From positions 310,001-374,000 of the forward strand of contig NZ_CP020739.1 in assembly GCF_002097715.1 (NCBI RefSeq): a stretch of 64,000 bases of DNA. The letters run 5' to 3'. The stretch comes from Burkholderia ubonensis subsp. mesacidophila. GTDB lineage: Bacteria > Pseudomonadota > Gammaproteobacteria > Burkholderiales > Burkholderiaceae. The position numbers were made by a program, and so were the translations under genes. Under the pieces are notes generated by a model. It was not told the origin of the DNA, ran no database searches, and saw only the letters and a list, made by a program, of their open reading frames with translations. Positions 15,564 through 43,563 of the stretch are shown in pieces; positions within the stretch are counted from its first letter, which is position 1; the number at the start of each line of letters is the position of its first letter.

Positions 15564-15669
15564 GTCCGGGCTTTCCGGTACACGTGCAGCGGTCGCCCGA
15601 TACCGGCGCGGCCGCTGCCCGGTGTATCGACGACGTTCCGGAAGGAACGGCATGCGTCGGAAGTCTGAA

Positions 15670-15696
15670 GACAGGGGAATACCCTGTCTTTTTTTT
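15670..15696 (+). terminator. Intrinsic terminator, cassette copy 1
   Basis: The stem GACAGGG (15670-15676) pairs with CCCTGTC (15682-15688) around loop GAATA, followed by eight T. It would end the RND operon. The same hairpin recurs at 36523 (identical stem and loop), and near-copies occur at 19524 and 30101, each followed by the same promoter-like element. Confidence 0.85.
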
Positions 15697-15712
15697 CGTC
15701 TCCTGAAGTGGG

Positions 15713-15744
15713 TATCATGACCTATGTTTTGTAACATGTACTAG
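15713..15744 (+). promoter_or_regulatory. Conserved promoter/operator element, copy 1 (subtype I)
   Basis: The element contains TCATGACCTATGTTT and, 23 bases after the start of CATGAC, the block TACTAG (15739-15744). ATGACC (15717-15722) matches a -35 hexamer at four of six positions, with TACTAG as a weak -10 candidate 16 bases on. It also contains ATGTT-N4-AACAT as an inverted repeat. It stands about 140 bases before the first amine dehydrogenase gene. Three further copies have identical spacing. Confidence 0.65.
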
Positions 15745-15884
15745 TTTCGGTAGCGGGCAAGGGCTGGCGGACATTTCGGCCCGGCAGGAAACCCGATGCT
15801 GGCGCCGGGACGATTGCGACGGATTCGTGAGTGCAAATCGGGCTCGCCGACTGCATCTTTTTTCATAGTCCTAACAAACACGCC

Positions 15885-17369
15885 ATGACCAAGAAGTCTT
15901 CCCTCAGCAGTTCGGCCGACCTGCGGCGCAGGCAATGGCTCAAGTACGCCGGCGCGACGGCTGCGGTCGGCGGCCTGGCGCTCGCCGCCCGGCCGGCAAG
16001 CGCCGGCGACGCAAAAGCCGCCGGCAAGCCGGGCGATGTGCTCGACGTCGTCATCATCGGCGCGGGGCTGGCCGGCTTGACCGCCGCGCGGGACCTGTGC
16101 CTCGCGGGCAGCGAATCCTTCCTGGTCCTGGAAGCGCGGGACCGCGTCGGGGGCCGCACGCTCAACCACAACATCGACGGCGGATACGTGACGGAAGTCG
16201 GGGGCCAGTGGATCGGGCCCGGCCAGACCGCCGTCGCGAATCTCGCCCGCGAGCTGGAAGTCGACACGTTCCCGAGCTACTACGACGGCAAGACGGTGCT
16301 GCTCGGCGGCGACGGCCGGATGGAGATGGACCTGAAGGGCACCTTCGGCACCGACGAAGCCGTGACGTCGAAGCTCAGCAAGTTGTCGCGCGACGTGCCG
16401 TCGGGTGCGCCGTGGACCTCGACCAAGGCCGGCGAGCTCGACAGGCTGTCGGTCGGCGACTGGCTGGCGAAGCAGGACATCAAGCCTGAAGACCAGGCCG
16501 GCTGGAATGCGTCGATCTCCCTGTCCGGCGGCACGATGCCCGCGAAGATGGGGCTCCTGCATTTCCTGTCGATGATCAACTCCGCCGCGTGCGACTACAC
16601 GCAGCTCGATTCGATCAAGCACAGCGCGCAGGAAACCCGGTTCGTCGGCGGCTCGCAGATCCTCAGCATCAAGATGGCGCAGCAACTGGGCGACAAGGTG
16701 CGGCTCTCGACGCCGGTCCGCCGGATCTCCGGCTGGAATACCGACGTCGTCACGCTGCATACCGACGGTGCGGAAATCCGCGCGCGCAAGGTCATCGTGG
16801 CCATCCATCCGGCCCTGTGCAACCGGGTGCAGTTCGATCCGCCGCTGCCGGTCGCGCGGGCCGCGCTGCAGCGCGCATGGCCCGGCCATTCGCCGGCGCG
16901 CAAGACGGCGATGGTCTACCGCCGCCCGTTCTGGCGCGACAAGGGGCTGAACGGCCACATCTTCCAAGCCGACGGGCCGATCTTCTGGGCCTACGACAAT
17001 TCGCCGCCGGGCGGCGAGATCGGCGTCATCAACGCGTTCATCAAGAACGCGATGGCGCCGTCTGAACCGCAGGCGGCGAAGCGCATGCTGGCGGACCTCT
17101 ATGCGCAGGCGTGGGGCAGCGAGGCGTTGTCCCCGGTGGCGTTCCACGACCACGACTGGGGCCGGGACGACCCCTGGTCGATCACCTGCGTCTCGGCGAT
17201 TCCGCCGGGCTTCTGGAGCACGCATGGCGCGGCGCTGCATCCGCCGTGCGGCAACCTGATCTGGTCGGGCACCGAGACCGCGAACATCTGGGCAGGCTAC
17301 ATGGACGGCGCGGTGCGCTCCGGCCATCAGGGCGCCCTGCAGGCGCTGAATGCGCTGCGTCAGGCCTGA
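15885..17369 (+). CDS. Tat-exported flavin amine oxidase/dehydrogenase, copy 1
   Basis: This 494-residue FAD enzyme belongs to the monoamine/putrescine oxidase family. A twin-arginine signal (RRRQWLKYAG at about residues 14-23, then a hydrophobic stretch to ARPASA) indicates folded export to the periplasm. The FAD Rossmann motif follows (VVIIGAGLAGLTAARDL), then LEARDRVGGRT, GGQWIGPGQT and the C-terminal FAD block SGTETANIWAGYMDGAV. The next gene encodes a diheme cytochrome c. In the known case of nicotine oxidoreductase NicA2 a flavin amine oxidase passes electrons to a cytochrome c instead of oxygen, and the pairing suggests the same here. ATG 15885 gives the Tat signal; a GTG at 15831 is possible. 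A close paralogue lies at 27930. The amine substrate is unknown. Confidence 0.88.
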   Translation: MTKKSSLSSSADLRRRQWLKYAGATAAVGGLALAARPASAGDAKAAGKPGDVLDVVIIGAGLAGLTAARDLCLAGSESFLVLEARDRVGGRTLNHNIDGGYVTEVGGQWIGPGQTAVANLARELEVDTFPSYYDGKTVLLGGDGRMEMDLKGTFGTDEAVTSKLSKLSRDVPSGAPWTSTKAGELDRLSVGDWLAKQDIKPEDQAGWNASISLSGGTMPAKMGLLHFLSMINSAACDYTQLDSIKHSAQETRFVGGSQILSIKMAQQLGDKVRLSTPVRRISGWNTDVVTLHTDGAEIRARKVIVAIHPALCNRVQFDPPLPVARAALQRAWPGHSPARKTAMVYRRPFWRDKGLNGHIFQADGPIFWAYDNSPPGGEIGVINAFIKNAMAPSEPQAAKRMLADLYAQAWGSEALSPVAFHDHDWGRDDPWSITCVSAIPPGFWSTHGAALHPPCGNLIWSGTETANIWAGYMDGAVRSGHQGALQALNALRQA

Positions 17370-17380
17370 GGAGCGCGAAA

Positions 17381-18037
17381 ATGAAAAAAATCGTACTGCT
17401 TTCCATTGCCGCGATCGTCGTGGTGCTGCTCGGCATTTTCGGTCCCACTTTGCTCGATCTCTATCGGCTTCAGCAGTTCGTCGCGACGACGGCCGAGGCC
17501 AACCAGGCCGACGGCGGCGCGTGGCCGCGCCTGACCGACGCCTGCATCGGGTGTCATGGCGCCAAGGGCACGTCGCTCCACCAGGGGTATCCGAGCCTCG
17601 CGGGCCAGCCGGCGGCCTACGTGGCCGCGCAGCTTCACGATTTCGCGAGCGGGCAGCGCGCCGATCCGAACATGGCGCCGCTGGCGATGACCATGAGCGA
17701 GGACGAGATCAAGCGGCTGGCCGACTATTACGCGAAGCAGCCGGCCGTCGCGAACCGCTACTTCGAACCGGACGCCCGCCTGCGCGCGAAAGGCGAGCAG
17801 CTGGTGACGGCCGGCGCGTGCGCCGCGTGCCACGGTGCGCGGCTGACGGGCCAGGCCCAGTTCCCGCGCCTCGCCGGCCAGGGGCGCGACTATCTGCTGA
17901 AGCAGCTCGATGCGTTCGCCGCCGGCACGCGCAACGAGGCCACCGGCACGATGAAGCGCGTCACCGCGGCCATGTCGCCCGAAGACCGGGACGCTGTCGC
18001 CACCTATCTGGCAAGCGTCGATCCGGCGAAGCAATGA
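17381..18037 (+). CDS. Membrane-anchored diheme cytochrome c, copy 1
   Basis: This 218-residue protein has one N-terminal membrane anchor (about residues 4-24) and two class I cytochrome c domains with heme sites CIGCH (Cys55, Cys58) and CAACH (Cys147, Cys150). It is of the c4-like diheme type, facing the periplasm. It starts 11 bases after the amine dehydrogenase with GAGGAG before the ATG, so the two are co-translated. It is the probable electron acceptor of that enzyme and would pass electrons to a terminal oxidase. A second copy of the pair is at 27930-30092. Confidence 0.9.
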   Translation: MKKIVLLSIAAIVVVLLGIFGPTLLDLYRLQQFVATTAEANQADGGAWPRLTDACIGCHGAKGTSLHQGYPSLAGQPAAYVAAQLHDFASGQRADPNMAPLAMTMSEDEIKRLADYYAKQPAVANRYFEPDARLRAKGEQLVTAGACAACHGARLTGQAQFPRLAGQGRDYLLKQLDAFAAGTRNEATGTMKRVTAAMSPEDRDAVATYLASVDPAKQ

Positions 18038-18071
18038 TGCATTCAACACAATCGGCACCAGGAGTCTAGTC

Positions 18072-18761
18072 ATGGATCTCAGAGAAATCGTCCTTTGTCT
18101 TGCCAGTATCCTGCTGGCGTCGACCACCGGCATCTACGGTGTGAAGTTCCTCAGGAGGCGCAACTATCTGCTCGGGATCGAGTGGCTGGTCGTCACGGTA
18201 TCCGCGTCGAATGCGCTGCTCTTCTTCGCGACCGGCTCGCCGTTTTGCTACGGCGTCTCGCACTTCCTGGATGCGTTTTCCCGCGGCTTCGGCATGCCGG
18301 TGATCGCCGTTGCGGGCCTGATGGCCGTGACCCACCACTACAAGCCGTCGGTTCGTCAGGACGTCATCCTGTTCGGGGTCGCCGTCGTGGGCACGACCAT
18401 CCTGATGACGACCGATTTCATCGACGGGATTCTCCCGTACTTCTACGTCGTGATGTGGACGCTGCTGGCGCTTTATCTTGCGTACTTCGTCAAGCGGCTG
18501 CTGAACGCGGGACAGACGTTCCATGCGCTGACCACGCTCGTGGCGCTGGTTTCGTCGCTGGCCATTGCGTATATCTACGATTTCTACAAGATCCCGGGAG
18601 AGGAGCACAACATCGTGTTCAACTTCTACACGCTTGCGCTGCTCACGTGGTCTTACCTGGTCGTGTCCCTCTCTCACGCCTATTGGGCGCTGGAGATGGC
18701 GTCAAAGCCCGTCATGGGCGAAACGGGGATTAGCTTCGTTCACCAAAACAGGTCGACATAA
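18072..18761 (+). CDS. Seven-helix integral membrane protein of unknown function
   Basis: This 229-residue protein has about seven hydrophobic segments (near residues 5-24, 33-53, 65-86, 98-116, 121-144, 152-172 and 185-208) and short loops. No transporter or enzyme motif is recognised. Histidines occur in or near several helices (GVSHFLDAF, VTHHYK, QTFHAL, SLSHAYW), which could matter for heme or proton chemistry, though this is speculative. It sits between cytochrome c and a TetR gene in the first operon and has no copy in the second amine-dehydrogenase set. The start follows GGAGTCTAGTC. Confidence 0.75.
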   Translation: MDLREIVLCLASILLASTTGIYGVKFLRRRNYLLGIEWLVVTVSASNALLFFATGSPFCYGVSHFLDAFSRGFGMPVIAVAGLMAVTHHYKPSVRQDVILFGVAVVGTTILMTTDFIDGILPYFYVVMWTLLALYLAYFVKRLLNAGQTFHALTTLVALVSSLAIAYIYDFYKIPGEEHNIVFNFYTLALLTWSYLVVSLSHAYWALEMASKPVMGETGISFVHQNRST

Positions 18762-18786
18762 CTAATGTGAAGTGCTGCAGAGAAGA

Positions 18787-19455
18787 ATGATGGATCAACC
18801 CTCGCACCTGGTCGGCGATTCGCGATCCGTGCCCGCGGCAACGAAGCGCTTGAACCGCGCACAGAGCAGGAACCAGACACGCGAACGTCTGCTGAGCGCC
18901 GCACGCACGATCTTCCTGAAGAAGGGCTGCGCTGCCGCGAGCGTCGAGGACATCGCCGTGGAGGCTGGCCACACGCGCGGCGCGTTCTACTCGAACTTCC
19001 GCAGCAAGACGGAACTGTTCGTCGAGTTGCTCGAGCGCGATCACGACGAGGCCATGGCGGAGCTGGAGCGGATCTTCACGGCGGGCGGCACGCGCGACGA
19101 AGTGGAGCGGAAGGTGCTCGCCTACTACCGGCAGCGCTATCGTCGGCACGAGACGTTCCTGATGTGGACGGAGGCGAAACTGCAGGCGGCGCGCGATGTG
19201 CGGTTCCGCACGCCATTCAATGCGTTCATGAGAAAGCGGCAGGAACGGACGACGGCCTGCATCCGCGCGTTCGCGGAGCGCACGCGGGCGCCGCTGCGGC
19301 TGCCGGCGGAAGTGCTGGCGCTGGGCCTGATGGAGCTGTGCGACGGCGTGCAGTCTCGTTATGCGGTCGATCCGCAATGCGTGACGAACGCGCTGGCCGA
19401 CGCGGTGCTGGCCGGTTTCTTTGCCTGTACGGTATTCGATCGCGTGCCCGAGTGA
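18787..19455 (+). CDS. TetR-family transcriptional regulator 1
   Basis: This 222-residue regulator has an N-terminal TetR helix-turn-helix (about residues 28-75: RERLLSAARTIFLKKGCAAA, VEDIAVEAGHTRGAFYSNFRSK) and an all-helical ligand domain. The ATG at 18787 is preferred over a GTG at 18772. It is the last gene of the first operon, so it would be autoregulated by the promoter element at 15713. It is one of two TetR proteins in the cluster, and one of the two subtypes of the four-copy promoter element may be its operator. Its ligand may be a CoA ester or the pathway amine. Confidence 0.9.
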   Translation: MMDQPSHLVGDSRSVPAATKRLNRAQSRNQTRERLLSAARTIFLKKGCAAASVEDIAVEAGHTRGAFYSNFRSKTELFVELLERDHDEAMAELERIFTAGGTRDEVERKVLAYYRQRYRRHETFLMWTEAKLQAARDVRFRTPFNAFMRKRQERTTACIRAFAERTRAPLRLPAEVLALGLMELCDGVQSRYAVDPQCVTNALADAVLAGFFACTVFDRVPE

Positions 19456-19523
19456 TTGCGCGCCGTGTCGGCGGCCGCCGTCCGCCTTGCCCGTTCTTGC
19501 CGCTCGATCCGCAAGCCGGGCAG

Positions 19524-19550
19524 GACAGGGAATACCCCGTCTTTTTCTTT
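19524..19550 (+). terminator. Terminator-like hairpin, cassette copy 2
   Basis: GACAGGG (19524-19530) and CCCCGTC (19535-19541) pair with one A-C mismatch around AATA, followed by TTTTTCTTT. It lies 68 bases after the TetR 1 stop and is a diverged copy of the hairpin at 15670. Confidence 0.7.
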
Positions 19551-19560
19551 GCCTATGTTT

Positions 19561-19596
19561 TTGTCACTATGACCTAACATTGTCACAGTGTTCTAA
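19561..19596 (+). promoter_or_regulatory. Conserved promoter/operator element, copy 2 (subtype II)
   Basis: TTGTCACTATGACCTAACATTG begins the element (read in two parts: TTGTCAC, then TATGACCTAACATTG), with TTCTAA at 19591-19596 at the same 23-base offset as in the other copies. The inner part AACATTGT-C-ACAGTGTT is a near-perfect 8+8 inverted repeat, a good candidate TetR operator. It lies about 60 bases before the dioxygenase start. Confidence 0.65.
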
Positions 19597-19654
19597 GAGG
19601 GGCGGCCTGACGCACACGTGACCGGGCTGACATTTCACTAACAGGAGATGACCG

Positions 19655-20488
19655 ATGGATGAAGCCAAGCGCAAGGCCTTCGCAGAGGACGGAGCGGTTC
19701 TGATCGAAGGCGTGCTCAACGAGGAACAGCTCGCCGCATGCCGTGCGGCATTCGACTGGGGTATCGAGAATCCCGGGCCGATGGCCTCCAGCATCCTCGA
19801 CGGCACGGTGGCCAAGTCGCATGTCGACAACGCCAATCCGTACGCGAAGGAGCGGCTCGACGACCTGGTCAGCCAACTGCCGCTCGGCAAGCTGTTCGCC
19901 GATCTGTGGGGCTCGAAGAACGTCTGGTTTTTCGCCGAGGAGCTCTTCCTGAAGAAGGGCGGCAAGGGCGCGCGCTCGCTGTGGCACCAGGACACGTCGT
20001 ACCTGCCGTGGCAAGGGATGCACTTCGGCAACGCATGGATCAGCTTCGAGGCCGTGCCGAAGCGCAATGCGCTGGAGATTGTCCGCGGCTCGCATCGCGG
20101 CACGCGCCATGACGGCACCACGTTCCAGAACGCCGACGATCCCACCGAGCCGCTGCATGGCGGCGGCGTGTGGCCGCGCATGCCGGATATCGAAGCCGAG
20201 CGCCGCGCCGACCCGAATGCCTACGACGTCATGTCGTGGGCGACGAAGCCGGGCGACGTGCTGCTGCTGCATCCCGGCGTGCTGCATGGCGGCGGAGTGG
20301 TCGATCCTGAGTTTCCGGACCGCCACACGCTCGTGCTGCGTTTCTTCGGCGACGACGCGACGTTCAGCCCGCTTCCCGAAAACAGCGCCTCGGGCTTCAC
20401 GCCGGCCGGCATCCTGTTCGTCGAGGAACTGGCGTCGCTGAAAGCCGGCGATCCGTTCCGCGCCCCCTGTTTCCGTCAACTCGTCTGA
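19655..20488 (+). CDS. Phytanoyl-CoA dioxygenase family protein (Fe(II)/2-oxoglutarate)
   Basis: This 277-residue cytosolic enzyme of the PhyH fold has the metal-binding HxD (WHQDTSYLPW), a distal His (LLLHPGVLHGGG) and the 2-oxoglutarate Arg (LVLRFFGDD). Members hydroxylate lipid-like or alkaloid-like substrates, with or without CoA. AGGAG precedes the ATG. It is the first gene of the long second operon (19655-30092), so it probably acts early in the pathway by hydroxylating an alkyl carbon. The actual substrate cannot be read from sequence. Confidence 0.87.
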   Translation: MDEAKRKAFAEDGAVLIEGVLNEEQLAACRAAFDWGIENPGPMASSILDGTVAKSHVDNANPYAKERLDDLVSQLPLGKLFADLWGSKNVWFFAEELFLKKGGKGARSLWHQDTSYLPWQGMHFGNAWISFEAVPKRNALEIVRGSHRGTRHDGTTFQNADDPTEPLHGGGVWPRMPDIEAERRADPNAYDVMSWATKPGDVLLLHPGVLHGGGVVDPEFPDRHTLVLRFFGDDATFSPLPENSASGFTPAGILFVEELASLKAGDPFRAPCFRQLV

Positions 20489-20505
20489 ACAAAGAGGTTC
20501 ATCTC

Positions 20506-20919
20506 ATGGCAACCACCAACAAACGTCAATCGATCGTTCCCGCCGCGTTCCAGCCATGGTACGACGCGTACCACTTCGCGCCGGCGACGCGCGTGGGCGA
20601 CACGATCTGGGTGTCCGGCCAGGTCGGCATCGGCGCGGACATGCAACCCGGCAACGGCGTGCAGGAGCAGGCTCGCATCGCGTTCGAATCGCTGAAGATG
20701 ATTCTCGCGGAGGCGGGCGCGAGCCTCGCGGACGTCGTCGAACTGACGACCTACCACACGAACCTGCAGGGCGAAACCGAAGCCTTCGCGGCGATCAAGG
20801 ATGAGTATTTTCCGAACCGCTATCCGTCGTGGACCGCGGTCGGGGTGACGCAGCTCGCGCTGCCCGGCCTGTGCGTCGAGATTCGCGCGGTGGCGGTGGC
20901 CGGGTCCGGCGACGCCTGA
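20506..20919 (+). CDS. RidA/YjgF family protein
   Basis: This 137-residue protein has the RidA signature (IWVSGQVGIG, QARIAFESLKMILAEAGASL, VGVTQLALPGLCVEIRAVAV) and lacks a signal peptide. Classical RidA hydrolyses reactive enamines and imines to ketones plus ammonia, using an Arg in the motif before the C-terminal strand. Here the matching position reads LCVEIRAV, with the Arg in EIRA. It begins 17 bases after the dioxygenase. In a cluster with three amine-type flavoenzymes, hydrolysis of an imine or enamine product is the natural role; this is inferred from context. Confidence 0.88.
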   Translation: MATTNKRQSIVPAAFQPWYDAYHFAPATRVGDTIWVSGQVGIGADMQPGNGVQEQARIAFESLKMILAEAGASLADVVELTTYHTNLQGETEAFAAIKDEYFPNRYPSWTAVGVTQLALPGLCVEIRAVAVAGSGDA

Positions 20920-21198
20920 TCCGGTTTTCCGGCGGTTGGCGCGGCCGGGGCGACATCCGGGCGGGTTGTCGCTCCGGTCTGCATGAAAGGCGGTGCGGGA
21001 TCCGTCAGGGTTGACAGGAAGGAGGACGGAGCGCTTATGGCGTGATGCAGGCGGACTTGAACGCGTAATCTTGAAATATCGCAATCCTGATCGTTGTGAA
21101 CGAAAGGCGCGGCGAACCGGGATGCAGCGGAAGGTTGTCAGGAAGTGGTGCGGTCGGGAAGCCGACCGGCGAATGAATGCGGAATCGGAAGGAGAACC

Positions 21199-22563
21199 AT
21201 GATGAAGATGCACCAGATCGGAGCCGTGTCGGCCATCGCGGCGGCTTTGTTGGTTTTGACCGGGGCGGCCGTCGCGGACGACCTCACGCCGTCGGGCGCC
21301 GAACGCGGCGCGAGCAAGGACGGCGCGGTGCCGGCGTATACGGGCAAGCAGTCGCCCGAGGCTGGCTGGGAGTGGGGGAAGGTGCGTGCCGATTTCTGGA
21401 AGCACAAGAACGAGAAGCCGCTTTATTCCATCGACGCCGCGAACGTCGACAAGTATGCCGACAAGCTTTCGCCGGGCCAGATCGCGCTGATCAAGCAGAA
21501 GAAGGGCTACCGGATGGACGTGTATCCGTCCCATCGCGAATGCCAGCTGCCGGAGGTCGCGGAGCAGAACTCGAAGGCGAATCTGACGGCGGCGAAGCTG
21601 GATTCGAGCGGCGTGAGCCTGGCGTCCGCCGAGTTGCCGGGCGTGGCGTTTCCGCAGCCGAAAAGCGGCGTGGAAGCGATCCTGAACTACGAAATGCGGT
21701 ACCGCGGCGAAGGGGTCGAGTGGGCGCAGACGGTGACCTCCGTTTCCCCGCGACCGGGCGGCAGCGAGTGGATCGACGCGACCGGCCCGCAGACGTACTT
21801 TTTCCCGTCGGCCAAGCTCGGCAAGAACTCGCCGCAGGACGTGAACCAGCTCAGCGCCGCCGTCTACTTCCAGATGAATTCGCCTGCGGCGCTGGCCGGG
21901 CAGGCTTTCGTGCAGCGTCAGTATTTCGACAAGGACTCGGAGACGTACTACTACTTCCCCGGCCAGCGGCGCGTGAGACGCATGCCGGCCTACACGCACG
22001 ATGCGCCGCTGATCGGCTTCGAGAATCAGTATCTGATCGACGAAGGGAACATGGTCAACGGCTCGCTCGACCGGTTCAACTGGAAGCTCGTCGGCAAGAA
22101 GGAAATGATCGTGCCGTACAACGCGTTCGGCATGTACAAGTACAAGAGCAACCTGCGCGACGTCGCCACGCCTGACGGCATCGCTGCGGCCAGCCGGCGC
22201 TACGAGACGCACCGCGTCTGGGTCGTCGAGGCGACGGTCAAGCCGAGCGCGCGCCACGTCGCGTCGAAGAAGGTGTTCTATCTGGACGAGGACAGCTGGC
22301 TCGCGCTCGTCGGCGAGGACTACGACGCGCAGGGCAAGCTGTGGAAGGTGCGCGAAAGCTACCCGATTCCGGTATGGGAGCTCGGCGGAACCTGCGACAA
22401 CGAGCCGCTCGCGCAGTACGACATGATCAACGGCCGTTACGTATTCGACGCGTCGTCCATCGGCCAGGGCAAGGACATTCGCTATTACGAGAAGGCCAGC
22501 GATCCGCGCTTCAAGACCGATTTCTACTCGGCTGAATCGCTGCGCTCGGTCAGCGAGCGCTGA
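21199..22563 (+). CDS. DUF1329 outer-membrane-associated lipid-handling protein
   Basis: This 454-residue protein has a signal peptide (to about residue 28, AAVADD) and the DUF1329 fold, a relative of LolA/LolB-type lipid carriers. YEMRYRGEGVEW and the repeated Tyr-rich block YYYFPGQRRVRRMP are typical. AAGGAG precedes ATG 21199. The 279-bp gap from RidA contains a possible TTGACA at 21011-21016, so an internal promoter is possible. DUF1329 genes are often followed by DUF1302 and MMPL genes, as here, and the set is thought to move hydrophobic compounds through the envelope. Confidence 0.88.
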   Translation: MMKMHQIGAVSAIAAALLVLTGAAVADDLTPSGAERGASKDGAVPAYTGKQSPEAGWEWGKVRADFWKHKNEKPLYSIDAANVDKYADKLSPGQIALIKQKKGYRMDVYPSHRECQLPEVAEQNSKANLTAAKLDSSGVSLASAELPGVAFPQPKSGVEAILNYEMRYRGEGVEWAQTVTSVSPRPGGSEWIDATGPQTYFFPSAKLGKNSPQDVNQLSAAVYFQMNSPAALAGQAFVQRQYFDKDSETYYYFPGQRRVRRMPAYTHDAPLIGFENQYLIDEGNMVNGSLDRFNWKLVGKKEMIVPYNAFGMYKYKSNLRDVATPDGIAAASRRYETHRVWVVEATVKPSARHVASKKVFYLDEDSWLALVGEDYDAQGKLWKVRESYPIPVWELGGTCDNEPLAQYDMINGRYVFDASSIGQGKDIRYYEKASDPRFKTDFYSAESLRSVSER

Positions 22564-22645
22564 AGGCAAGGTCGTTCAATACATAAATAGAACAGCCGAC
22601 GTGCGCTGACGCGCCGTCGGCCTCCAGGTTTGGGTGAGGTGGGCG

Positions 22646-24490: not shown

Positions 24491-24507
24491 GTTGAAGGGG
24501 GCATGCT

Positions 24508-26868: not shown

Positions 26869-26899
26869 CGCCCGCGAACCCTTCGACAGAGACACTGCC

Positions 26900-27865: not shown

Positions 27866-27929
27866 GCCGGTACGCATGCCTGCATGTCGTTGATCAGTCA
27901 TCCAGATGAAAACCGTTGGAGCATGAGAA

Positions 27930-29408: not shown

Positions 29409-30092
29409 ATGAAACGGGCAATGATCATCGGCGCCGTGGTGGCGGTCATGGGGCTGGTCGGCGCGGGTGTGCTGTACGGACGCGACATCCTGGACGGGAT
29501 GCGCTTCGAGAAGGCGATGAGCCGGATCGGCGAGGCGGACCGGGCGAACGCCGGGCCATGGCCGCAGCCGCAGGAGACTTGCTTCTTCTGTCACGGCCAG
29601 CACGGGCAGTCGCTCAATGCGTGGTATCCGGCGCTATCGGGCCAGCCCGACGCGTACCTCGCGGCGCAACTGCGCGCATTCGCCCGCGACGCGCGCCACA
29701 ACGCATACATGGGACCGCTCGCGCGGGATCTCGACGATGCGCAGATCAACGCGATGGCCGCGTATTTCGCGAAGCAGACCCCGACTCGCAACGAGGCCGT
29801 TCCGTTCGACGCGGCGCTTGCAAAGCGTGGCATGGAACTGATCCAGGCGCGGAGCTGCCAGGCCTGCCATGGCGCGACGCTGATGGGCAAGGATCAGGCG
29901 CCGCGTCTCGCGGGCCAGGGCGAGAGCTATCTGGCGACCCAGCTTGCCGCGTTCAAGTCAGGCGCACGCCATGACCCGAGCGGCGTGATGAATGGCGTGG
30001 CCGCGACGTTGTCGGACGAAGACGTCCGGGCAGCGGCCCACTACCTCGCCGGCATCTCGCCGGGCGCGCGCGTCGACGTCGCGGCGCGATAG
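29409..30092 (+). CDS. Membrane-anchored diheme cytochrome c, copy 2
   Basis: This 227-residue protein has an N-terminal anchor (about residues 5-24) and two heme sites, CFFCH (Cys58, Cys61) and CQACH (Cys150, Cys153). Layout and local sequence (SGQP-AY-AAQL, PRLAGQG) parallel the cytochrome at 17381. Its ATG follows the preceding TGA with no gap, so it is tightly coupled to amine dehydrogenase copy 2 and is the probable electron acceptor. It is the last gene of the second operon. Confidence 0.9.
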   Translation: MKRAMIIGAVVAVMGLVGAGVLYGRDILDGMRFEKAMSRIGEADRANAGPWPQPQETCFFCHGQHGQSLNAWYPALSGQPDAYLAAQLRAFARDARHNAYMGPLARDLDDAQINAMAAYFAKQTPTRNEAVPFDAALAKRGMELIQARSCQACHGATLMGKDQAPRLAGQGESYLATQLAAFKSGARHDPSGVMNGVAATLSDEDVRAAAHYLAGISPGARVDVAAR

Positions 30093-30100
30093 TTCGGCAG

Positions 30101-30123
30101 GACCGGGAATACCCTGTCTTTTT
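30101..30123 (+). terminator. Terminator-like hairpin, cassette copy 3
   Basis: GACCGGG (30101-30107) and CCCTGTC (30112-30118) pair with one mismatch around AATA, followed by five T and CTTCG. It begins nine bases after the cytochrome stop and is a diverged copy of the hairpin at 15670. Confidence 0.7.
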
Positions 30124-30137
30124 CTTCGCTCTTATTT

Positions 30138-30173
30138 TTGTCACTATGACCTAACATTGGTATTGTGTTCTAC
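30138..30173 (+). promoter_or_regulatory. Conserved promoter/operator element, copy 3 (subtype II)
   Basis: TTGTCAC then TATGACCTAACATTGG, with TTCTAC at 30168-30173. The first 23 bases of the core match the element at 19561 exactly, and the spacing is the same. The inner inverted repeat is weaker than in copy 2. The reductase gene starts 87 bases after the last block. Confidence 0.65.
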
Positions 30174-30205
30174 AAAGATGAACCGACCGCCGCGCGACGC
30201 GGCAT

Positions 30206-30247
30206 CGACTCACGTTTGATGGACCCGACTTTCAACGACTCACGTTT
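30206..30247 (+). repeat. 12-bp direct repeat in the leader of the third operon
   Basis: CGACTCACGTTT occurs at 30206-30217 and again at 30236-30247, exactly 30 bases apart, between the promoter element and the start codon. It may come from a local duplication; no function is assigned. Confidence 0.6.
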
Positions 30248-30259
30248 CAGGAGACAACC

Positions 30260-31390
30260 ATGGCAAAGCACCCCGTCGTCGTCTATGGCGCAAGCGGCTA
30301 CACCGGCATGTTGATCATGGACTGGCTGATCGACCAGAACATTCCGTTCACGGCGGTCGCGCGCAATGCGGGCCGCGCGAAGGACATGATGGCGCAGCGC
30401 GTCGTGCGCCTCGAATCGGCGGAATACGAGATCATCGAGGCGGAACACGACGTCGATTCGCTCGTCAACGCATTCCGCGGCGCGAAGGTGGTGTGCAACA
30501 CCGTCGGGCCGTTCGCCAGTTTCGGGCTCGTCGGCGTCGAAGCCGCGCTGAAGGCCGGCTGCCACCATCTCGACACGACGGGCGAGCAGTCCTACATCCG
30601 CAACGTGCGCGACCAGTTCGGCGACCTGTATCGGCAGGCCGGCCTGCTCGTGTCGTCGTCGAATGCGTACATGTACACGTTCGCCGAAATCGCCGCTGAG
30701 CTGGCGCTCGAAACGCCCGGCGTCGATGCGCTGGAAACCGCGACGCTGACGCGCGGCCCGCGCGGCGCGGCGGGGGTGAGCGTGGGCTCGACGGCCACGA
30801 TCTTCGACGGCTCCCGTCACGAATCCTGCTACCTGTGGGAGAAAAAGCTCACCCCCCACGCGCCGGATGCGTCGTTCAACGTCGCCGCGCCCGAGTTCAT
30901 GCAGCCGGTGTTCTGCCTGCCGTGGGGCGGCACGTCGCTGCCTGTCTACTTCGAGCGCGATCCGCGCGTGCGCAGCTGCATTTCGTGCGTGGGCTTCTAC
31001 GACAACAACGTCATGCAGCTCGTTCACCAGTTCGGGCAGAAATGGGAAGCCGAATACAAGCACCTGCCGCGCGAGCACCAGGACGCGATCTTGAAGCAGG
31101 TCGTCGATTCGACTACGCCGTCGATGCCGCCGCGCGAGCGCACGACGATCCAGCGCAGCGTCGATTTCGCGATCGGCCGCGGCCAGCTCGCGTCGGTGCG
31201 CGCGACCGTGCACGGGATCACGCCGTACATCTCGACCGGCGCGATTCATGCGGCCGGCGCGATCAAGCTCCTCGACGGCGAAACGGCGAAGGTCGGCTTC
31301 GCGTCCGGCTCGAAGGCGTTCGGGCACCGCTACCTGCTCGGCTTCCTCGAGCAGCGCGGGCTGGCGCGCGCGACCGTGACGCAGCTGTGA
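30260..31390 (+). CDS. Saccharopine dehydrogenase-like NAD(P)-binding protein
   Basis: This 376-residue protein has an N-terminal Rossmann domain (VVVYGASGYTGMLIMDWL) followed by a saccharopine-dehydrogenase-like half (VVCNTVGPF, HHLDTTGEQ). Relatives include trans-acting enoyl reductases and other NADPH-dependent reductases, so it may reduce a C=C, C=O or C=N bond in the pathway. ATG 30260 follows CAGGAGAC. It is the first gene of the third operon, 40 bases before an acyl-CoA ligase. The exact reaction is unknown. Confidence 0.75.
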   Translation: MAKHPVVVYGASGYTGMLIMDWLIDQNIPFTAVARNAGRAKDMMAQRVVRLESAEYEIIEAEHDVDSLVNAFRGAKVVCNTVGPFASFGLVGVEAALKAGCHHLDTTGEQSYIRNVRDQFGDLYRQAGLLVSSSNAYMYTFAEIAAELALETPGVDALETATLTRGPRGAAGVSVGSTATIFDGSRHESCYLWEKKLTPHAPDASFNVAAPEFMQPVFCLPWGGTSLPVYFERDPRVRSCISCVGFYDNNVMQLVHQFGQKWEAEYKHLPREHQDAILKQVVDSTTPSMPPRERTTIQRSVDFAIGRGQLASVRATVHGITPYISTGAIHAAGAIKLLDGETAKVGFASGSKAFGHRYLLGFLEQRGLARATVTQL

Positions 31391-31429
31391 TCGCCGCCGG
31401 GCCAGTGCAGACTCAGGGGAACAAGCGAA

Positions 31430-32983
31430 ATGGCAATCATTGATTTCTTCGACCGCGGGTGGCGCATCAATCCCCACGGCATCGCCTATATCCAGGACGA
31501 GCGCAGCCATTCGTTCCAGGAGATCGGCGAGCTGTCCTGCCGCATCGCCAACGGGCTGATCGACAGCGGGTTCGCAAAGGAAGCGAAGGCGGCGGTGTGG
31601 GCGGACAACGACGTGATCGGCTGGGCCTGCGCGCTCGGGATGTGGCGCGCCGGGATGGCCTACATTCCCGTCAACGGGCGCAACACGCCTGCGGAGAACC
31701 AGTACGTGCTCGACGCGTTCGACTGCGAGGCGCTGTTCTTCACCCGGGCGTTCGCGGCGGTGCTCGACGCGCTGCGTCCGAGCCTGCCGAAGGTCAGACT
31801 GTGGGTGTGCATCGACGCCGACCTGCCGTGGGCGCCGTCCCTCGCGACGTGGAGCGCGGGGCAGCCGTCGACGATGCCCCGCGTCGCCTACGACATGGAC
31901 GACGTCGTGACGCTGTCGGCCACCGGCGGGACGACCGGCGCGCCGAAGGGCGTGATGAACACGCATCGCGCGTTCCAGACTTACTTCGCGCAATTCATGA
32001 TGGCGTTCCCGTACGGCGCCGAGCGCCCGGTGAATCTCGCCGCGGCGCCGATGACGCACACCGCGGGGATGATGTCGCTGCCGTGCACCGCGCGCGGCGG
32101 CACCGTGGTCGTGCTCACGAAGCCCGATCCGGCGCTGCTGCTCGGCGCGATCGCGAAGCACCGCGTCACCGAGTTCTTCCTGCCGCCGACGGTCATCTAT
32201 CGGCTGCTCGACATCCCCGGCATCGAGCAGCAGGATTTCTCGTCGCTCAAGTACTTCCTCTATGGCGCCGCGCCGATGTCGGTGGAGAAGCTCAAGCGCG
32301 CGATCGAGGTGTTCGGCCCGGTGATGGCCGGCGGTTACGGGCAGACCGAAGCCGCCGCATCGATTTCTAACCTGGCGCCGGCCGAGCATTTCGTCGACGG
32401 CACGATCGCGTCCGACGAGCGGCTGTCGTCGGTCGGCCGCCCGAACCCGCTGATCCGCGTCGAGATCATCGGCGATCAGGGCGAGGTCCTGCCGCAAGGC
32501 GGGACCGGCGAGATCTGCGTGCGCGGCGACCTCGTGATGAAGGGCTACTACAACGCGCCCGACAAGACCGCCGAGACGATCGTCGACGGCTGGCTGCACA
32601 CCGGCGACATTGGCCACATCGACGCCGAAGGCTACCTGCACATCACCGACCGCAAGAAGGACATGATCATCAGCGGCGGCTTCAACGTGTATCCGAGCGA
32701 GGTCGAGCAGGTGATCTGGGCGCACCCGGCGGTGCAGGACTGCGCGGTGATCGGCGTGCCCGACGACAAGTGGGGCGAGGCGGTGAAGGCGGTGGTGGAG
32801 CTCAATGTTGGCCAGAGCGTGAGCGCCGAGGAGCTCGTCGCGCTGTGCAAGGAGAAGCTCGGCTCGGTGAAGGCGCCGAAGAGCGTGGAGTTCGTCGCCG
32901 CGCTGCCGCGCAGCACGGTCGGCAAGGTGCTGAAGAAAGACCTGCGCGAGCGGTACTGGCAGGGCCTGCAACGCAAGATCTGA
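31430..32983 (+). CDS. Acyl-CoA ligase (ANL superfamily)
   Basis: This 517-residue enzyme has the AMP-binding P-loop (SATGGTTGAPKGV, about residue 162), GGYGQTEAA, the hinge region GWLHTGDIGHID and DRKKDMIISGGFNVYPSEVE. The catalytic Lys is near the C-terminus (STVGKVLKKDLRERY). It would activate a carboxylate to its CoA ester through an acyl-adenylate, feeding the thiolase encoded 14 bases downstream and the acyl-CoA dehydrogenases of the fourth operon. Long- or medium-chain specificity cannot be told from these motifs. Confidence 0.93.
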   Translation: MAIIDFFDRGWRINPHGIAYIQDERSHSFQEIGELSCRIANGLIDSGFAKEAKAAVWADNDVIGWACALGMWRAGMAYIPVNGRNTPAENQYVLDAFDCEALFFTRAFAAVLDALRPSLPKVRLWVCIDADLPWAPSLATWSAGQPSTMPRVAYDMDDVVTLSATGGTTGAPKGVMNTHRAFQTYFAQFMMAFPYGAERPVNLAAAPMTHTAGMMSLPCTARGGTVVVLTKPDPALLLGAIAKHRVTEFFLPPTVIYRLLDIPGIEQQDFSSLKYFLYGAAPMSVEKLKRAIEVFGPVMAGGYGQTEAAASISNLAPAEHFVDGTIASDERLSSVGRPNPLIRVEIIGDQGEVLPQGGTGEICVRGDLVMKGYYNAPDKTAETIVDGWLHTGDIGHIDAEGYLHITDRKKDMIISGGFNVYPSEVEQVIWAHPAVQDCAVIGVPDDKWGEAVKAVVELNVGQSVSAEELVALCKEKLGSVKAPKSVEFVAALPRSTVGKVLKKDLRERYWQGLQRKI

Positions 32984-32997
32984 ATCGGGCGACCCAC

Positions 32998-34239
32998 ATG
33001 AGCAACATCTATATCGCCGGCATCGCGATGACCGTATTCGGCCGGCACGTCGAGCGCAGCGTCGACGACCTGGCGGGCGAGGCGCTGCGCGGCGCGCTGC
33101 GTGACGCCGGCTGCGGCGCCGACGCGATCGGCGCGGCATTCTACGCCGGCATCACCAACGGGCAGCTTCAGGGCCAGTTGTCGATCCCGGGCCAGGTCGT
33201 GTTCAGCAAGATCGGCATCGAAGGCGTGCCGGTGTTCAACGTCGAGAATGCGTGCGCGTCCGGCAGCACCGCGGTGCATCTGGCCGTGCGGCATCTCGAG
33301 GCGGGCGCGTGCGACGTCGCGCTCGCGCTCGGCGCGGAAAAGATGAACGTCGAGGACAAGGCGCGCTCGTTTGCACTGTTCGAGGCGGGCTGGGACGTGT
33401 CCCGCGTCGACGAGAACTTCGCGACGCTCGCGAGGATGGGCGACGGCATCGAGCCACCTCCCGGATCGGAATCGGACCGGCCGTACAGCCGCTTCATGAA
33501 GATCTATGCGGCGATGTGCCGGTATCACATGCGGACCTACGGCACGACCCAGCGCCAGATTGCGGCCGTGTCGTCGAAGAACCACCTGCATTCGGTGCAC
33601 AACCCGCATTCGCAGTTCCGCAAGCCGTTCACGATCGACGAGGTGCTCGCCGCGCCGCCGATCACCTATCCGATCACGCTGCCGATGTGCGCGCCGGTGT
33701 CGGACGGCGCGGCCGCCGCGATCCTCTGCACCGAGGAAGGCTTGCGGCGCATCGGCGCCGATCGCAGCCGCTGCATCCGGATCGCAGCCAGCGTGATCCG
33801 CAGCTTCACGCATCGGCGCATCGACGAGCCGGACAAGAGCATCGGCCGCCGCGCCGCGCTGCAGGCCTACGAACAGGCGGGCGTGGGGCCGGAGGACATG
33901 GATGTCGCCGAGGTGCACGACGCGTCCGCGATGGGCGAGATCATCCAGGCCGAGAACCTCGCGCTCGTGCCGTTCGGCGAGGGCGGGCCGGCCGCCGAGC
34001 GCGGCGAGTTCACGCTCGGCGGACGCATCCCGATCAACACGTCCGGCGGCCTCGAATCCAAGGGTCATCCGCTCGGCGCGACGGGGATTGGTCAGCTCTG
34101 CGAACTGGTCACGCAACTGCGTGGGGAAGCCGGCGCGCGGCAGGTGCAGGGCGCGCGCCATGCGATTCAGGAAAACGGCGGCGGGTTGCAGGGTGTCGAG
34201 GAAGCGGCGCTCGCCGTTCATATTCTGAGCAGGGACTGA
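32998..34239 (+). CDS. Thiolase family protein (SCP-x type)
   Basis: This 413-residue thiolase-fold enzyme has its nucleophilic Cys at residue 86 (NVENACASGSTA). HDASAMGE and GGLESKGHPLGATG follow, the pattern of sterol-carrier-protein-x-like thiolases rather than classic FadA. This class cleaves 3-ketoacyl-CoA with branched or bulky side chains. The open frame continues upstream through the ligase gene but similarity starts at ATG 32998. It sits between the ligase and a flavin oxidoreductase in the third operon. Confidence 0.9.
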   Translation: MSNIYIAGIAMTVFGRHVERSVDDLAGEALRGALRDAGCGADAIGAAFYAGITNGQLQGQLSIPGQVVFSKIGIEGVPVFNVENACASGSTAVHLAVRHLEAGACDVALALGAEKMNVEDKARSFALFEAGWDVSRVDENFATLARMGDGIEPPPGSESDRPYSRFMKIYAAMCRYHMRTYGTTQRQIAAVSSKNHLHSVHNPHSQFRKPFTIDEVLAAPPITYPITLPMCAPVSDGAAAAILCTEEGLRRIGADRSRCIRIAASVIRSFTHRRIDEPDKSIGRRAALQAYEQAGVGPEDMDVAEVHDASAMGEIIQAENLALVPFGEGGPAAERGEFTLGGRIPINTSGGLESKGHPLGATGIGQLCELVTQLRGEAGARQVQGARHAIQENGGGLQGVEEAALAVHILSRD

Positions 34240-34250
34240 CGGAGGCAGGC

Positions 34251-35588
34251 ATGGGCAAGGAGTTGGACCAATATCGGCCGCTCGGCGGGTGGGTGGAGAA
34301 GCCGGACGATCCGCAGCCGCCGCTGGAAGGCGACGTCGCCCCGGACGCGATCGTCGTCGGCGCCGGCTTCGCCGGCCTGTCCACCGCGCTGGAGCTGGCC
34401 GCGCGCGGCGCGAAGGTCGTCGTCCTCGAACGCGAGTTCGCCGGCTTTGGCGCGAGCGGGCGCAATGCCGGTTATCTCGCGGGCGGCCAGGGGCTCGAAT
34501 ACGACCTGTTCGTCAAGCGCGTGGGCCGCGAGCAGGCGAAGCAGATCGTCGGCTTCTACGACGCAGGCGTCGCCTACGTCGAACGAAAGCTCGCCGAATA
34601 CGGGATCGACTGCGATTACAACGCGTCGGGGATCATTCGCGCGGGCGTCCATCCTTCGCAGGAGGAGAAGCTGCGCGAGAGCATGCAAACCGGCATCGCG
34701 CTCGGCTCCCCCGCCGAGTTCCTGGATCATGCGGCGATGCGCGCGCGCGGGATTCCGCCGGCGTTCCTGTTCGGTTGCCACATTCCGGGCGGCGGCACGC
34801 TGGATCCCGGCAAGTACGTGATGGGGCTGCGCCGTGCGGCGCTTCGCGCGGGCGTGACGCTCCACGAGAACACGGCGCTGGAGTCGTATGAAGCGGGGCC
34901 GGCGGTCAAGGTGCGGACCGCGCGCGGCAGCGCGAGCGCGCCGTTCCTGGTGCTCGCGACCAACGCGTATACGCCGCAGCTCGGCCTGCTCGGCGACAAG
35001 GTGATGCCGCTGCGCGTCTCGGCGATCGAGACCGAGCCGCTGTCGGCCGCGCAACTGGCATCGCTGGGCTGGCCGCGGCGCGAAGGCATCGTGACCTCGC
35101 ACTTCACGATGGAAAGCCACCGCCTGACCGCGCGCAACACGCTCGTGCTGACGACGAAGCGGCTTCACTACGTGTACGGGTCGCAGACGCCGAACGTGCC
35201 GGACAACGCCGCCTATCGCGAGCTGGCGGATGCGTTGCACGAGCGCTTCCCGACCTTGCGCGGTCTCGCGATCCGGGCGTGCTGGAGCGGCTATATCTCG
35301 CTCGCGGCCGATGCGCTGCCGGTGGTCGGCGAAACCGGCGAGCAGCGCAACATCTTCTACACGGCCGGCTGTTCCGGACACGGCGTCGGCACCCAGTCGC
35401 TGATGGGCGAATTGCTTGCGCAACGCATCCAGGGCGACGAGCCGCCGCACCTTGCCGCGTTGCGCCACAAGACGCCGTCGATGGCGCCCGAGCCGCTGCG
35501 CTGGTGCGCGATCCGTGCGGCGCTGGGCGTGGCGAACCTGCTCGATGCGCGTGTGAATCGCAAGGCGCGCGCCGCCGCGCGGGGGTAG
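34251..35588 (+). CDS. FAD-dependent oxidoreductase, DAO family
   Basis: This 445-residue flavoprotein has an N-terminal FAD motif (IVVGAGFAGLSTALELAARG), GASGRNAGYLAGGQG and a C-terminal YTAGCSGHGVG block. It is typical of the DAO group that includes gamma-glutamylputrescine oxidase and other amine/imino-acid oxidases. It has no signal peptide and is cytosolic, unlike the two Tat-exported amine dehydrogenases. GGAGG precedes ATG 34251, 11 bases after the thiolase. It probably oxidises a secondary or primary amine intermediate inside the cell. Confidence 0.87.
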   Translation: MGKELDQYRPLGGWVEKPDDPQPPLEGDVAPDAIVVGAGFAGLSTALELAARGAKVVVLEREFAGFGASGRNAGYLAGGQGLEYDLFVKRVGREQAKQIVGFYDAGVAYVERKLAEYGIDCDYNASGIIRAGVHPSQEEKLRESMQTGIALGSPAEFLDHAAMRARGIPPAFLFGCHIPGGGTLDPGKYVMGLRRAALRAGVTLHENTALESYEAGPAVKVRTARGSASAPFLVLATNAYTPQLGLLGDKVMPLRVSAIETEPLSAAQLASLGWPRREGIVTSHFTMESHRLTARNTLVLTTKRLHYVYGSQTPNVPDNAAYRELADALHERFPTLRGLAIRACWSGYISLAADALPVVGETGEQRNIFYTAGCSGHGVGTQSLMGELLAQRIQGDEPPHLAALRHKTPSMAPEPLRWCAIRAALGVANLLDARVNRKARAAARG

Positions 35589-35814
35589 CAATGCGCGCGC
35601 CGGCTGGGTGCACGGAACGGACGACACTGGTCATCAGGCCAGCTGGCTCCCGGCCTGTCGAAACGAAGGAGAACCGAGCGCCCGGACAGGCCGACGGGGT
35701 GTAAGCCGCTTGTTGGAAAATGCGACCGGCATCGGGTATAGTCATCTGCGCCCGCCGAAACGCGGGCGCCTTGATTTCGACGAGGCCGGAACGCCACCAT
35801 GACGACGGAAAGCG

Positions 35815-36492
35815 ATGACAGTGCCTATTGAGCAGCGCAGCAGCAGGAAACCGCGCACATCGAGCGCAGCAGCATCCGCAGCGAACGGTACCGACGGTTT
35901 GCGGGCCCAGGGCCTGCGCACACGCAACACCATCATTCGCGTTGCCAGAAAGCTCCTGCTCGACGGCGGCCCGCTGGAATTCTCGCAGCGCGCGGTCGCC
36001 GCCGCCGCGGGAATCAGCGTCAGCAACCTCCAGTACTATTTTCCGACGCGGCCGGCCGTCTTGCGGGCGGTCATCGCACCGGTCGTCGAAGGGTATCTGA
36101 ACGACCTGAAGCAGGCGATCGACAACGACACGTCGCCCCACGCTGCGCTGGATGCGATCATGAAGCGATCGCTTCGTGATGCGAAAGACATCAAGTACAC
36201 GACATTGTTCAGGCACTTCCTGTCGTTTGCAGCGACCGATCCCGAGTGCGCCCAGCTGCTCAAGGAATGGTACGACACGCTGTCGCACGATCTCGCCCAG
36301 CTGATCCGCGCCGTCAATCCGGCATGCGGTGCAGCCGAGAGCAGGCAAATCGCGTCGCTGCTCATCGCGCTGGCCGACGGGCTGGCGCTGCAATACGGCA
36401 CGGGGCGCGACGCGCAGCCGCCCGAGGCGCGCTACATGGAGACCGCGCATTACCTCGTGTACGGGAAGCCGCCGAGCGCCAAAGGCAAGTAG
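35815..36492 (+). CDS. TetR-family transcriptional regulator 2
   Basis: This 225-residue regulator has about 35 basic/Ala-Ser residues and then a TetR helix-turn-helix (about residues 38-85: TRNTIIRVARKLLLDGGPLE, AVAAAAGISVSNLQYYFPTR) and a helical ligand domain. It is preceded by a 226-bp gap and followed by cassette copy 4. A 10-codon frame (35799-35831) overlaps its start but is probably chance. It is the second TetR of the cluster and a candidate for reading one subtype of the repeated promoter element. The ribosome site is weak (GGAAAGCG). Confidence 0.88.
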   Translation: MTVPIEQRSSRKPRTSSAAASAANGTDGLRAQGLRTRNTIIRVARKLLLDGGPLEFSQRAVAAAAGISVSNLQYYFPTRPAVLRAVIAPVVEGYLNDLKQAIDNDTSPHAALDAIMKRSLRDAKDIKYTTLFRHFLSFAATDPECAQLLKEWYDTLSHDLAQLIRAVNPACGAAESRQIASLLIALADGLALQYGTGRDAQPPEARYMETAHYLVYGKPPSAKGK

Positions 36493-36522
36493 CGGTCGAG
36501 CGCGTCGGCGGCATCCGCAAGA

Positions 36523-36549
36523 GACAGGGGAATACCCTGTCTTTTTTTT
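36523..36549 (+). terminator. Intrinsic terminator, cassette copy 4
   Basis: GACAGGG (36523-36529) pairs perfectly with CCCTGTC (36535-36541) around GAATA, followed by eight T. Stem, loop and T-run are identical to the hairpin at 15670 although it lies 21 kb away. Confidence 0.85.
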
Positions 36550-36560
36550 CGTTCTCGTGT

Positions 36561-36596
36561 TTGTCATCATGACCTATGTTTGGTAGTAAGTACTAG
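36561..36596 (+). promoter_or_regulatory. Conserved promoter/operator element, copy 4 (subtype I)
   Basis: TTGTCAT then CATGACCTATGTTTGG, with TACTAG at 36591-36596, the same layout as the element at 15713. GTCAT-C-ATGAC forms a perfect short palindrome over the -35 candidate. The acyl-CoA dehydrogenase gene starts 66 bases after TACTAG. Confidence 0.65.
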
Positions 36597-37951: not shown

Positions 37952-38221
37952 GGACCGCGCGTTCGTGGCAGGGCTTCCGGCCGGTGCGAAGCCGGAGCCC
38001 TGGTGAATAAGATCAGGAATTCGTAGTAACTGGCGATTCGCCGTGTTCGCGCGGCTTGGCATCGCGCGTCTGCGCAGGACGTTTTCGTCAGGCTCCGCCT
38101 TCCCGGGACGACTATTCGCCGAGCACCGGAACGGCCGCGCGCAATCGCTCGCGTTTCCTGACGCTGGAGCAGGCGCGGGCGGCGGACGAACCCGATCGAC
38201 GCAATTGAATCAGGAGAAGCG

Positions 38222-38971: not shown

Positions 38972-38987
38972 GAGGGAGCGGAAAGAA

Positions 38988-39920: not shown

Positions 39921-40174
39921 CCGCACGCGCGACGCGTGCAGTCGTGACGTCACCGGTCGGGTGCGGCGCAACGAAAGGCGAGCCGCAGGTTGCGAGCCCT
40001 GTCATGAAAACGGTTCCACGCGTCGTGCCGATCGACTTCCAGCCGCTCACCCCAACGCTGCTCCCGACCGGTCACTCGGGAATTCACATCATGAATACTG
40101 GTCGATTCAACAAATAAATTTCAAAAATGCACGCCCGGCCGCTAATCTGAACGCCACACTTGGATGAGCATGCG

Positions 40175-40849: not shown

Positions 40850-40874
40850 CCCACCTCACGGAACGATCGCGACG

Positions 40875-41906: not shown

Positions 41907-41965
41907 ACGACCTGAAGCCGACGCGGCACGCGCCGCGCGCACATACATACATGGAGGAGCAATAA

Positions 41966-42730: not shown

Positions 42731-42737
42731 GCGCGCG

Positions 42738-43496: not shown

Positions 43497-43563
43497 GGAC
43501 GCGATCAGGGTTCCGATCAGTCGATAGCCGGGAAATTCACCCCCTCATTTCAGGACCAGAAAC

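Follow-up and report, generated by a model that had tools for sequence, protein, structure and literature searches.

Local control by a TetR-family repressor acting through paired operators is known from tetO1/tetO2. With respect to gene content, one report places DUF1302/PF07044/COG1033/COG4447 operons of Betaproteobacteria in predicted regulons under AphS, AphR or AphT; in Burkholderia sp. 383, the predicted AphR regulon comprises this four-gene block and PhyH, encoded in neighboring operons (PMC6449761). Here, we describe a two-part cassette, a hairpin-like dyad with T-tract followed by a tandemly repeated element, that occurs four times in a 64,000-nucleotide stretch (the window) of Burkholderia ubonensis subsp. 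mesacidophila, i.e. positions 310,001-374,000 of one contig (NZ_CP020739.1) of a 7.84 Mb genome in four contigs. Judged from the sequence, the cassettes probably constitute an autoregulated local regulon of the TetR-type protein TetR2, in which tandem operators cover the promoter and a dyad with T-tract is an integral part upstream; we assign this reading a probability of roughly 0.68.

The Four Cassettes

The cassettes comprise the following features:

15670-15696, plus strand: cassette 1, hairpin GACAGGG-GAATA-CCCTGTC followed by T8
15709-15743, plus strand: cassette 1, tandem half-sites 15709-15724 and 15728-15743 with a 19-bp period
19524-19546, plus strand: cassette 2, interrupted hairpin GAC-A-GGG-AATA-CCC-C-GTC followed by T5
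19561-19595, plus strand: cassette 2, tandem half-sites 19561-19576 and 19580-19595
30101-30123, plus strand: cassette 3, interrupted hairpin GAC-C-GGG-AATA-CCC-T-GTC followed by T5
30138-30172, plus strand: cassette 3, tandem half-sites 30138-30153 and 30157-30172
36523-36549, plus strand: cassette 4, hairpin identical to that of cassette 1, T8
36561-36595, plus strand: cassette 4, tandem half-sites 36561-36576 and 36580-36595, the second with two mismatches to the half-site consensus

The initial annotation had described these units as a terminator joined to a promoter, and all four copies are present where it placed them. The hairpin with its eight T is indeed the same in copies 1 and 4, and the 23-base offset between the leading C/T of the element and its T(A/T)CTA block holds for all copies. 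The 7-bp stem that had been ascribed to every copy is continuous in copies 1 and 4 and interrupted after GGG/CCC in copies 2 and 3.

Exact matches to the pattern ATGACCTANNNTTN9TNCTA lie at 15717, 19569, 30146 and 36569. When three mismatches are tolerated, these four remain the only matches in the window, a number that none of 100 dinucleotide shuffles reaches (mean 0.39), and the hairpin pattern, searched at the same tolerance, finds the same four places (shuffle mean 0). Genome-wide, the element has four exact matches, all in the cluster; allowing two mismatches adds two more, versus nine for a reversed-pattern control. These four places are likewise the only ones in the genome returned by the pattern of hairpin plus T-run (up to two mismatches) and by a 35-bp tandem pattern (up to three), with 0 for the control in each case. 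The genome scan suggested in the initial annotation hence revealed no scattered copies in this genome, and a dispersed repeat or miniature inverted-repeat transposable element is rejected, as the four copies stand alone genome-wide at the searched stringency. An Rfam scan of 14000-48000 gave no match at the gathering threshold. With one cassette at the head of each of four operons, and restriction to this cluster, a shared regulon, as proposed initially, is very likely.

Geometry and Conservation

For comparison, 108 distinct element matches were collected from the loci compared (numbered L below; genomes are numbered G). Dropping six loci, namely the chance matches in L005, L006, L023 and L113 and the hairpin-less sites of another cluster type in L054 and L061, left 102 aligned copies, which include near-duplicate species and are not independent. 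The hairpin-less rows L094, L095 and L074 at 9791 stay among the 102; the Cupriavidus sites in L084 and L085, with three mismatches, lie outside them. Loop and element are separated by 38 nt in 18 copies, by 39 nt in 61 and by 40 nt in 16, which makes 95/102; the loop pattern gave no match in the remaining seven. Among orthologous copies in Burkholderia, compared position by position, identity is 0.75-0.98 in the hairpin and T-tract and 0.81-0.92 in the element, with 0.58-0.73 in the spacer and 0.41-0.57 in the upstream flank. The downstream flank reaches 0.45-0.49 in three groups and 0.79 in the ACAD1 group, and in three of the four groups conservation falls right after CTA, Shine-Dalgarno and start regions excepted. 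Hairpin and element are thus a rigid module of about 75 bp.

Between different positions, identity of the element is 0.59-0.78. The element is therefore more alike within than between positions, which indicates that these positions have long been distinct. This does not extend to the hairpin part, in which positions 1 and 4 share 0.89 identity, above that of position 1 among its own orthologues (0.75). Concerning the initial idea that the unit was copied to build the regulon, the element shows no sign of recent copying, and the hairpin part is less clear-cut.

The Element and the Promoter

The downstream part, ATGACCTA…T(A/T)CTA, resolves into two tandem 16-bp half-sites, TTGKYA-NN-RTGWYCTA, spaced 19 bp apart. 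Seven of the eight half-sites in the window match this consensus with at most one mismatch, versus 0.09 expected; the one starting at 36580 has two. When the base profile of the 102 copies is compared with itself, the peak is a direct repeat at 19 bp, with a sum of 5.51 (0.290 per pair) versus 2.60 for the shift ranking second by sum. Among palindromes, the best two are centred at 9.0 (sum 3.02, 0.168 per pair) and at -1.0 (sum 2.20, 0.244 per pair), so that an imperfect palindrome is also present in the first half-site. The T(A/T)CTA block forms the end of the second direct-repeat half-site, so that its initial reading as a promoter box needs revision. In Cupriavidus numazuensis (L085), the order of the half-sites is exchanged, TTGTCATGATGTTCTA preceding TTGGTAACGTGACCTA, an arrangement that a simple -35/-10 reading does not predict.

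The promoter itself most likely overlaps the element, since nothing common to the four groups is seen downstream. Sigma-70 scoring with an E. coli matrix gave mean scores of 6.49, 5.58, 4.51 and 3.08 for a -10 box at -4, 15, 6 and 25, and a simple sigma-70 scan of 15500-35499 found one site, TTGTCA-17-TATTGT in copy 3, versus 1.8 in shuffles. The promoter consensus of B. cenocepacia, given as TAnAAT with a weak TTGCC in work that mapped transcript starts in strain J2315, does not decide between the -10 placements (PMC4603805). A near-consensus sigma-70 promoter, TTGACT-17-TATATT, is found on the minus strand of the Cupriavidus loci L080 (1460-1700), L083, L084 and L085, with identical hexamers in all four. 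It precedes a divergent gene for amine oxidase 2, and the last TA of an imperfect half-site starts its -10.

The Upstream Dyad and T-Tract

The core of the upstream part, GGG, four A/T and CCC, is kept in 94/102 copies (AATA in 82/102), and the T-tract is 93-97% T at aligned positions -26 to -23. Such exact letters at a fixed distance could mean that the dyad and T-tract act as DNA, either as an UP element or as the site of a second, activating protein at around -55 to -70 relative to the start, rather than as an RNA hairpin. This alternative is a serious contender, albeit one we hold at somewhat less than even odds. It would account for an outer stem that is often broken and does not covary: across 33 unique variants, 5.73 of seven pairs form on average, compared with 5.70 in a register-fair shuffle, and 2071 of 5000 shuffles reach the observed value. 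A seeming excess obtained earlier (5.50 versus 4.78, 0/2000) had to be withdrawn, because the best register was picked per sequence and hairpin-less rows were included; arm covariation was thus rejected as proof of an RNA hairpin. Against a purely DNA-level role, the exact core is absent from 8/102 copies, a few variants (e.g. L092 and L100) keep pairing via changes on both sides, and the comparison of clusters with the window proteins, in which unmatched genes were mostly not examined, revealed no second regulator common to all.

The initial annotation instead saw an intrinsic terminator of the preceding operon next to a separate promoter, the pair having been copied. Several observations are in favor of this proposal. 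Copies 1 and 4 are strong hairpins with T8 (-16.5 kcal/mol, z -4.3, and -17.2 kcal/mol, z -4.7), full 7/7 pairing is possible in 50 of the 94 anchored copies, and all four cassettes of the window have a co-directional upstream gene. A generic terminator scan of 15500-35499, a range that leaves copy 4 outside, also detected copy 1, but missed copies 2 and 3 and showed no overall excess (nine sites versus 11.9 in shuffles). The interrupted hairpins of these two copies fold at -10.4 kcal/mol (z -0.9) and -9.0 kcal/mol (z -0.8), values matched by 33 and 42 of 200 shuffles, respectively. Neither the lack of covariation nor the constant spacing of 38-40 nt is what a terminator would call for. Moreover, relatives keep the hairpin in 10 loci where the gene upstream is divergent. 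Of 11 first cassettes of clusters that were checked, six (L143, L150, L157, L158, L159 and L160) have a divergent upstream gene, four a same-strand open reading frame (ORF), and one is unsettled. Upstream of L143 lies a divergent response regulator and of L158 a divergent histidine kinase, both confirmed by Pfam; in L150, L157, L159 and L160 the ORF on the opposite strand was assigned by G+C content at third codon positions. By tblastn, the amine oxidase 2 gene lies divergently upstream in the Cupriavidus loci L080, L083, L084 and L085. L143 (listed as L007), L150 and L157 have a complete 7-bp stem in their first cassettes.

Divergent upstream genes, absent arm covariation and the kept GGG-WWWW-CCC core together argue that the upstream part is not merely the terminator of the previous operon. 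We consequently regard the terminator model as unlikely: a plain terminator does not explain all observations, and of the alternatives a role at the DNA level now has the better case. That the hairpin ends the operon before it fits the gene order of this window and does not hold in general, given the 10 divergent loci and the interruptions in copies 2 and 3. The two parts are also separable, as the hairpin-less sites of another cluster type (L061, L094 and L095) keep the element alone; G048, from which L061 comes, does carry another relative of TetR2 on that contig. Tentatively, and again at somewhat less than even odds, the terminator-like hairpin may be an obligate promoter part, i.e. a dyad and T-tract fixed to a tandem TetR operator whatever lies upstream, in a two-part unit repeated across the regulon and conserved in several Burkholderiaceae genera.

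TetR2 as Candidate Regulator

The likeliest candidate for a protein that reads the element is TetR2, which combines a helix-turn-helix domain (TetR_N, 6.8e-7) with a ligand-binding C-terminal domain (TetR_C_6, 5.7e-10; both Pfam) and scores 42.6 bits against the NCBI BetI equivalog, whose cut-off is 201.3. In a survey of 65 Burkholderia genomes (TetR2 orthologue at E<1e-70, element with at most one mismatch), the element was found in 29/29 genomes with a TetR2 orthologue and in 1/36 without. The exception, G047, has a single element match and no hairpin; it carries relatives of the DUF5938 protein of the cluster, and neither TetR2 nor a proper cassette. In nine genomes of the genus, TetR2 and the element are present although no DUF5938 relative reaches E<=1e-20, so that the element follows TetR2 and not the DUF5938 gene. 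Across 398 genomes of the family (TetR2 at E<=1e-40), all 43 with TetR2 have at least one element match. The recognition segment GIS[VI]SNLQYYFPT recurs in 39/39 aligned TetR2 orthologues, the V/I exchange being the sole variation.

A more distant TetR protein (25-30% identity to TetR2) that shares NLQYYF is encoded near DUF5938 genes in L062, L073, L074, L077, L078, L079, L090, L094 and L097, and may serve hairpin-less element-like sites. Two TetR2 paralogues are encoded in clusters of a second type, which lack a DUF5938 relative (G018, G019, G022, G049, G053, G057, G058 and G061); in G049, G053, G058 and G061, one of the two paralogues shows a TGA inside the matched frame.

Alternatively, the element could be bound by an AraC-type activator or be read by an extracytoplasmic function (ECF) sigma factor. 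Two-box half-sites in direct repeat resemble AraC-type sites, and invariant spacing would suit a sigma factor. However, the usual spacing of AraC repeats is about 21 bp, the element co-occurs with TetR2, and neither family was found among the window genes submitted to Pfam, a subset of the ORFs, with neighbors in relatives scanned in part; we deem this explanation improbable. TetR1, encoded at 18772-19455 within operon 1, is a highly unlikely regulator that appears dispensable, as no cluster copy was found in G003, G031 and G033 (at most 45 candidates per genome scored), each of which has four elements, and as a relative at E<=1e-20 exists in 65/65 genomes, 35 of them without the element. Outside the cluster, a TetR1 relative with about 55-62% identity is found in most Burkholderia genomes searched; TetR1 may derive from such a resident regulator.

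Proposed Regulatory Circuit

Taken together, each cassette would be a rigid regulated promoter module whose downstream part is a tandem operator overlapping the core promoter. We infer that TetR2 most likely binds this operator and represses, rather than activates, all four operons, until its release by a metabolite of the pathway, which might be an acyl-CoA or the amine substrate. The TetR2 gene is the last of operon 3, which is itself headed by a cassette, and the circuit would thus be autoregulated. The GGG-WWWW-CCC dyad and the T-tract at constant distance belong to the module, and may act either as a hairpin protecting the promoter against read-through or as a DNA-level promoter part that is protein-bound or, in the case of the T-tract, UP-like.

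Several points weigh against TetR2 as the regulator and against the tandem operator. TetR operators are usually palindromes, not direct repeats, and the palindrome at -1 comes near the direct repeat in value per column, which makes a palindromic first site possible. The promoter position is not fixed, given four rival placements of the -10 box at intervals of about 10 bp. In the family survey, 80 of 355 genomes without TetR2 match the element as well, with inspection limited to the matches listed and the single match of G145 outside these; the reversed-pattern control also matches many family genomes. The co-occurrence is among related genomes and hence not independent, and TetR2 and the element could have been passed on jointly as parts of one inherited cluster. 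Furthermore, in L094 and L095, element-like sites lacking the hairpin stand at DUF5938 genes, and the stretch compared contains no close TetR2. Finally, the dismissal of TetR1 draws on the search of at most 45 candidates per genome.

Gene Content of the Cluster

The four neighboring operons, which probably serve amine breakdown, are composed as follows:

15885-19455, plus strand: operon 1, four genes with TetR1 last
15885-17369: FAD amine oxidase (amine oxidase 1), operon 1
frame ending at about 18037: cytochrome c-like gene, operon 1
18072-18761: protein without assigned family, operon 1
18772-19455: TetR1, operon 1
19655-30092, plus strand: operon 2, PhyH, RidA, DUF1329, DUF1302, MMPL/RND, Ycf48-like protein, FAD amine oxidase 2 and cytochrome c
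30260-36492, plus strand: operon 3, DUF5938 oxidoreductase, acyl-CoA ligase, thiolase, DAO oxidoreductase and, last, TetR2
35815-36492, plus strand: TetR2, with TetR_N and BetI-type TetR_C_6, candidate regulator for the four cassettes
36662-44826 (listed extent), plus strand: operon 4, first acyl-CoA dehydrogenase, ETF beta and alpha and the ORF 40160-40849, then, within the same span, an APH-type kinase, two SDRs and an acyl-CoA dehydrogenase

It is a fair inference that the cluster encodes a catabolic pathway from an amine to acyl-CoA. In a PDB search, the nearest match of amine oxidase 1 is the monoamine oxidase 8p84 (E 2.3e-86), followed by putrescine oxidases. The DUF5938 protein is 96% identical to that of Burkholderia ubonensis LMG 20358, among its closest named matches. 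The product of 18072-18761 (229 aa, hydrophobic-looking, without Pfam or NCBIfam match) recurs in most compared clusters, twice in L158, and adjoins the amine oxidase/cytochrome c pair or a TetR gene. The ORF assigned at first to 17350-18069 has the wrong frame; comparison with relatives, in which a cytochrome c-like gene is seen, points to that of 17111-18037.

Comparison with Known Systems

Literature searches by motif letters returned no Burkholderia paper by title, those on DUF5938 found no paper, and no title or abstract opening among the results describes the cassette. The predicted Aph regulons share the same four-gene block, but have other regulators, and the main text of that report is without the terms "TetR" and "direct repeat" (PMC6449761). 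TetR2 resembles BetI-type regulators in matching TetR_N and TetR_C_6, yet it stays far below the BetI cut-off, and the target genes differ. As in tetO1/tetO2, a repressor gene would lie in its own regulon, with the operator over the promoter and two sites per promoter. Unlike there, the clearest symmetry is a direct repeat of 19 bp, and each of the four operators has a hairpin-like dyad at fixed distance. An uncharacterized catabolic regulon found in several Burkholderiaceae genera hence gains a candidate regulator and a candidate operator. A terminator-looking sequence can, moreover, be kept at fixed promoter spacing where no upstream gene reads in, which bears on genome annotation. The system may thus be regarded as a variant of the well-known repressor regulons, the unusual part of which is the dyad and T-tract at a fixed distance.

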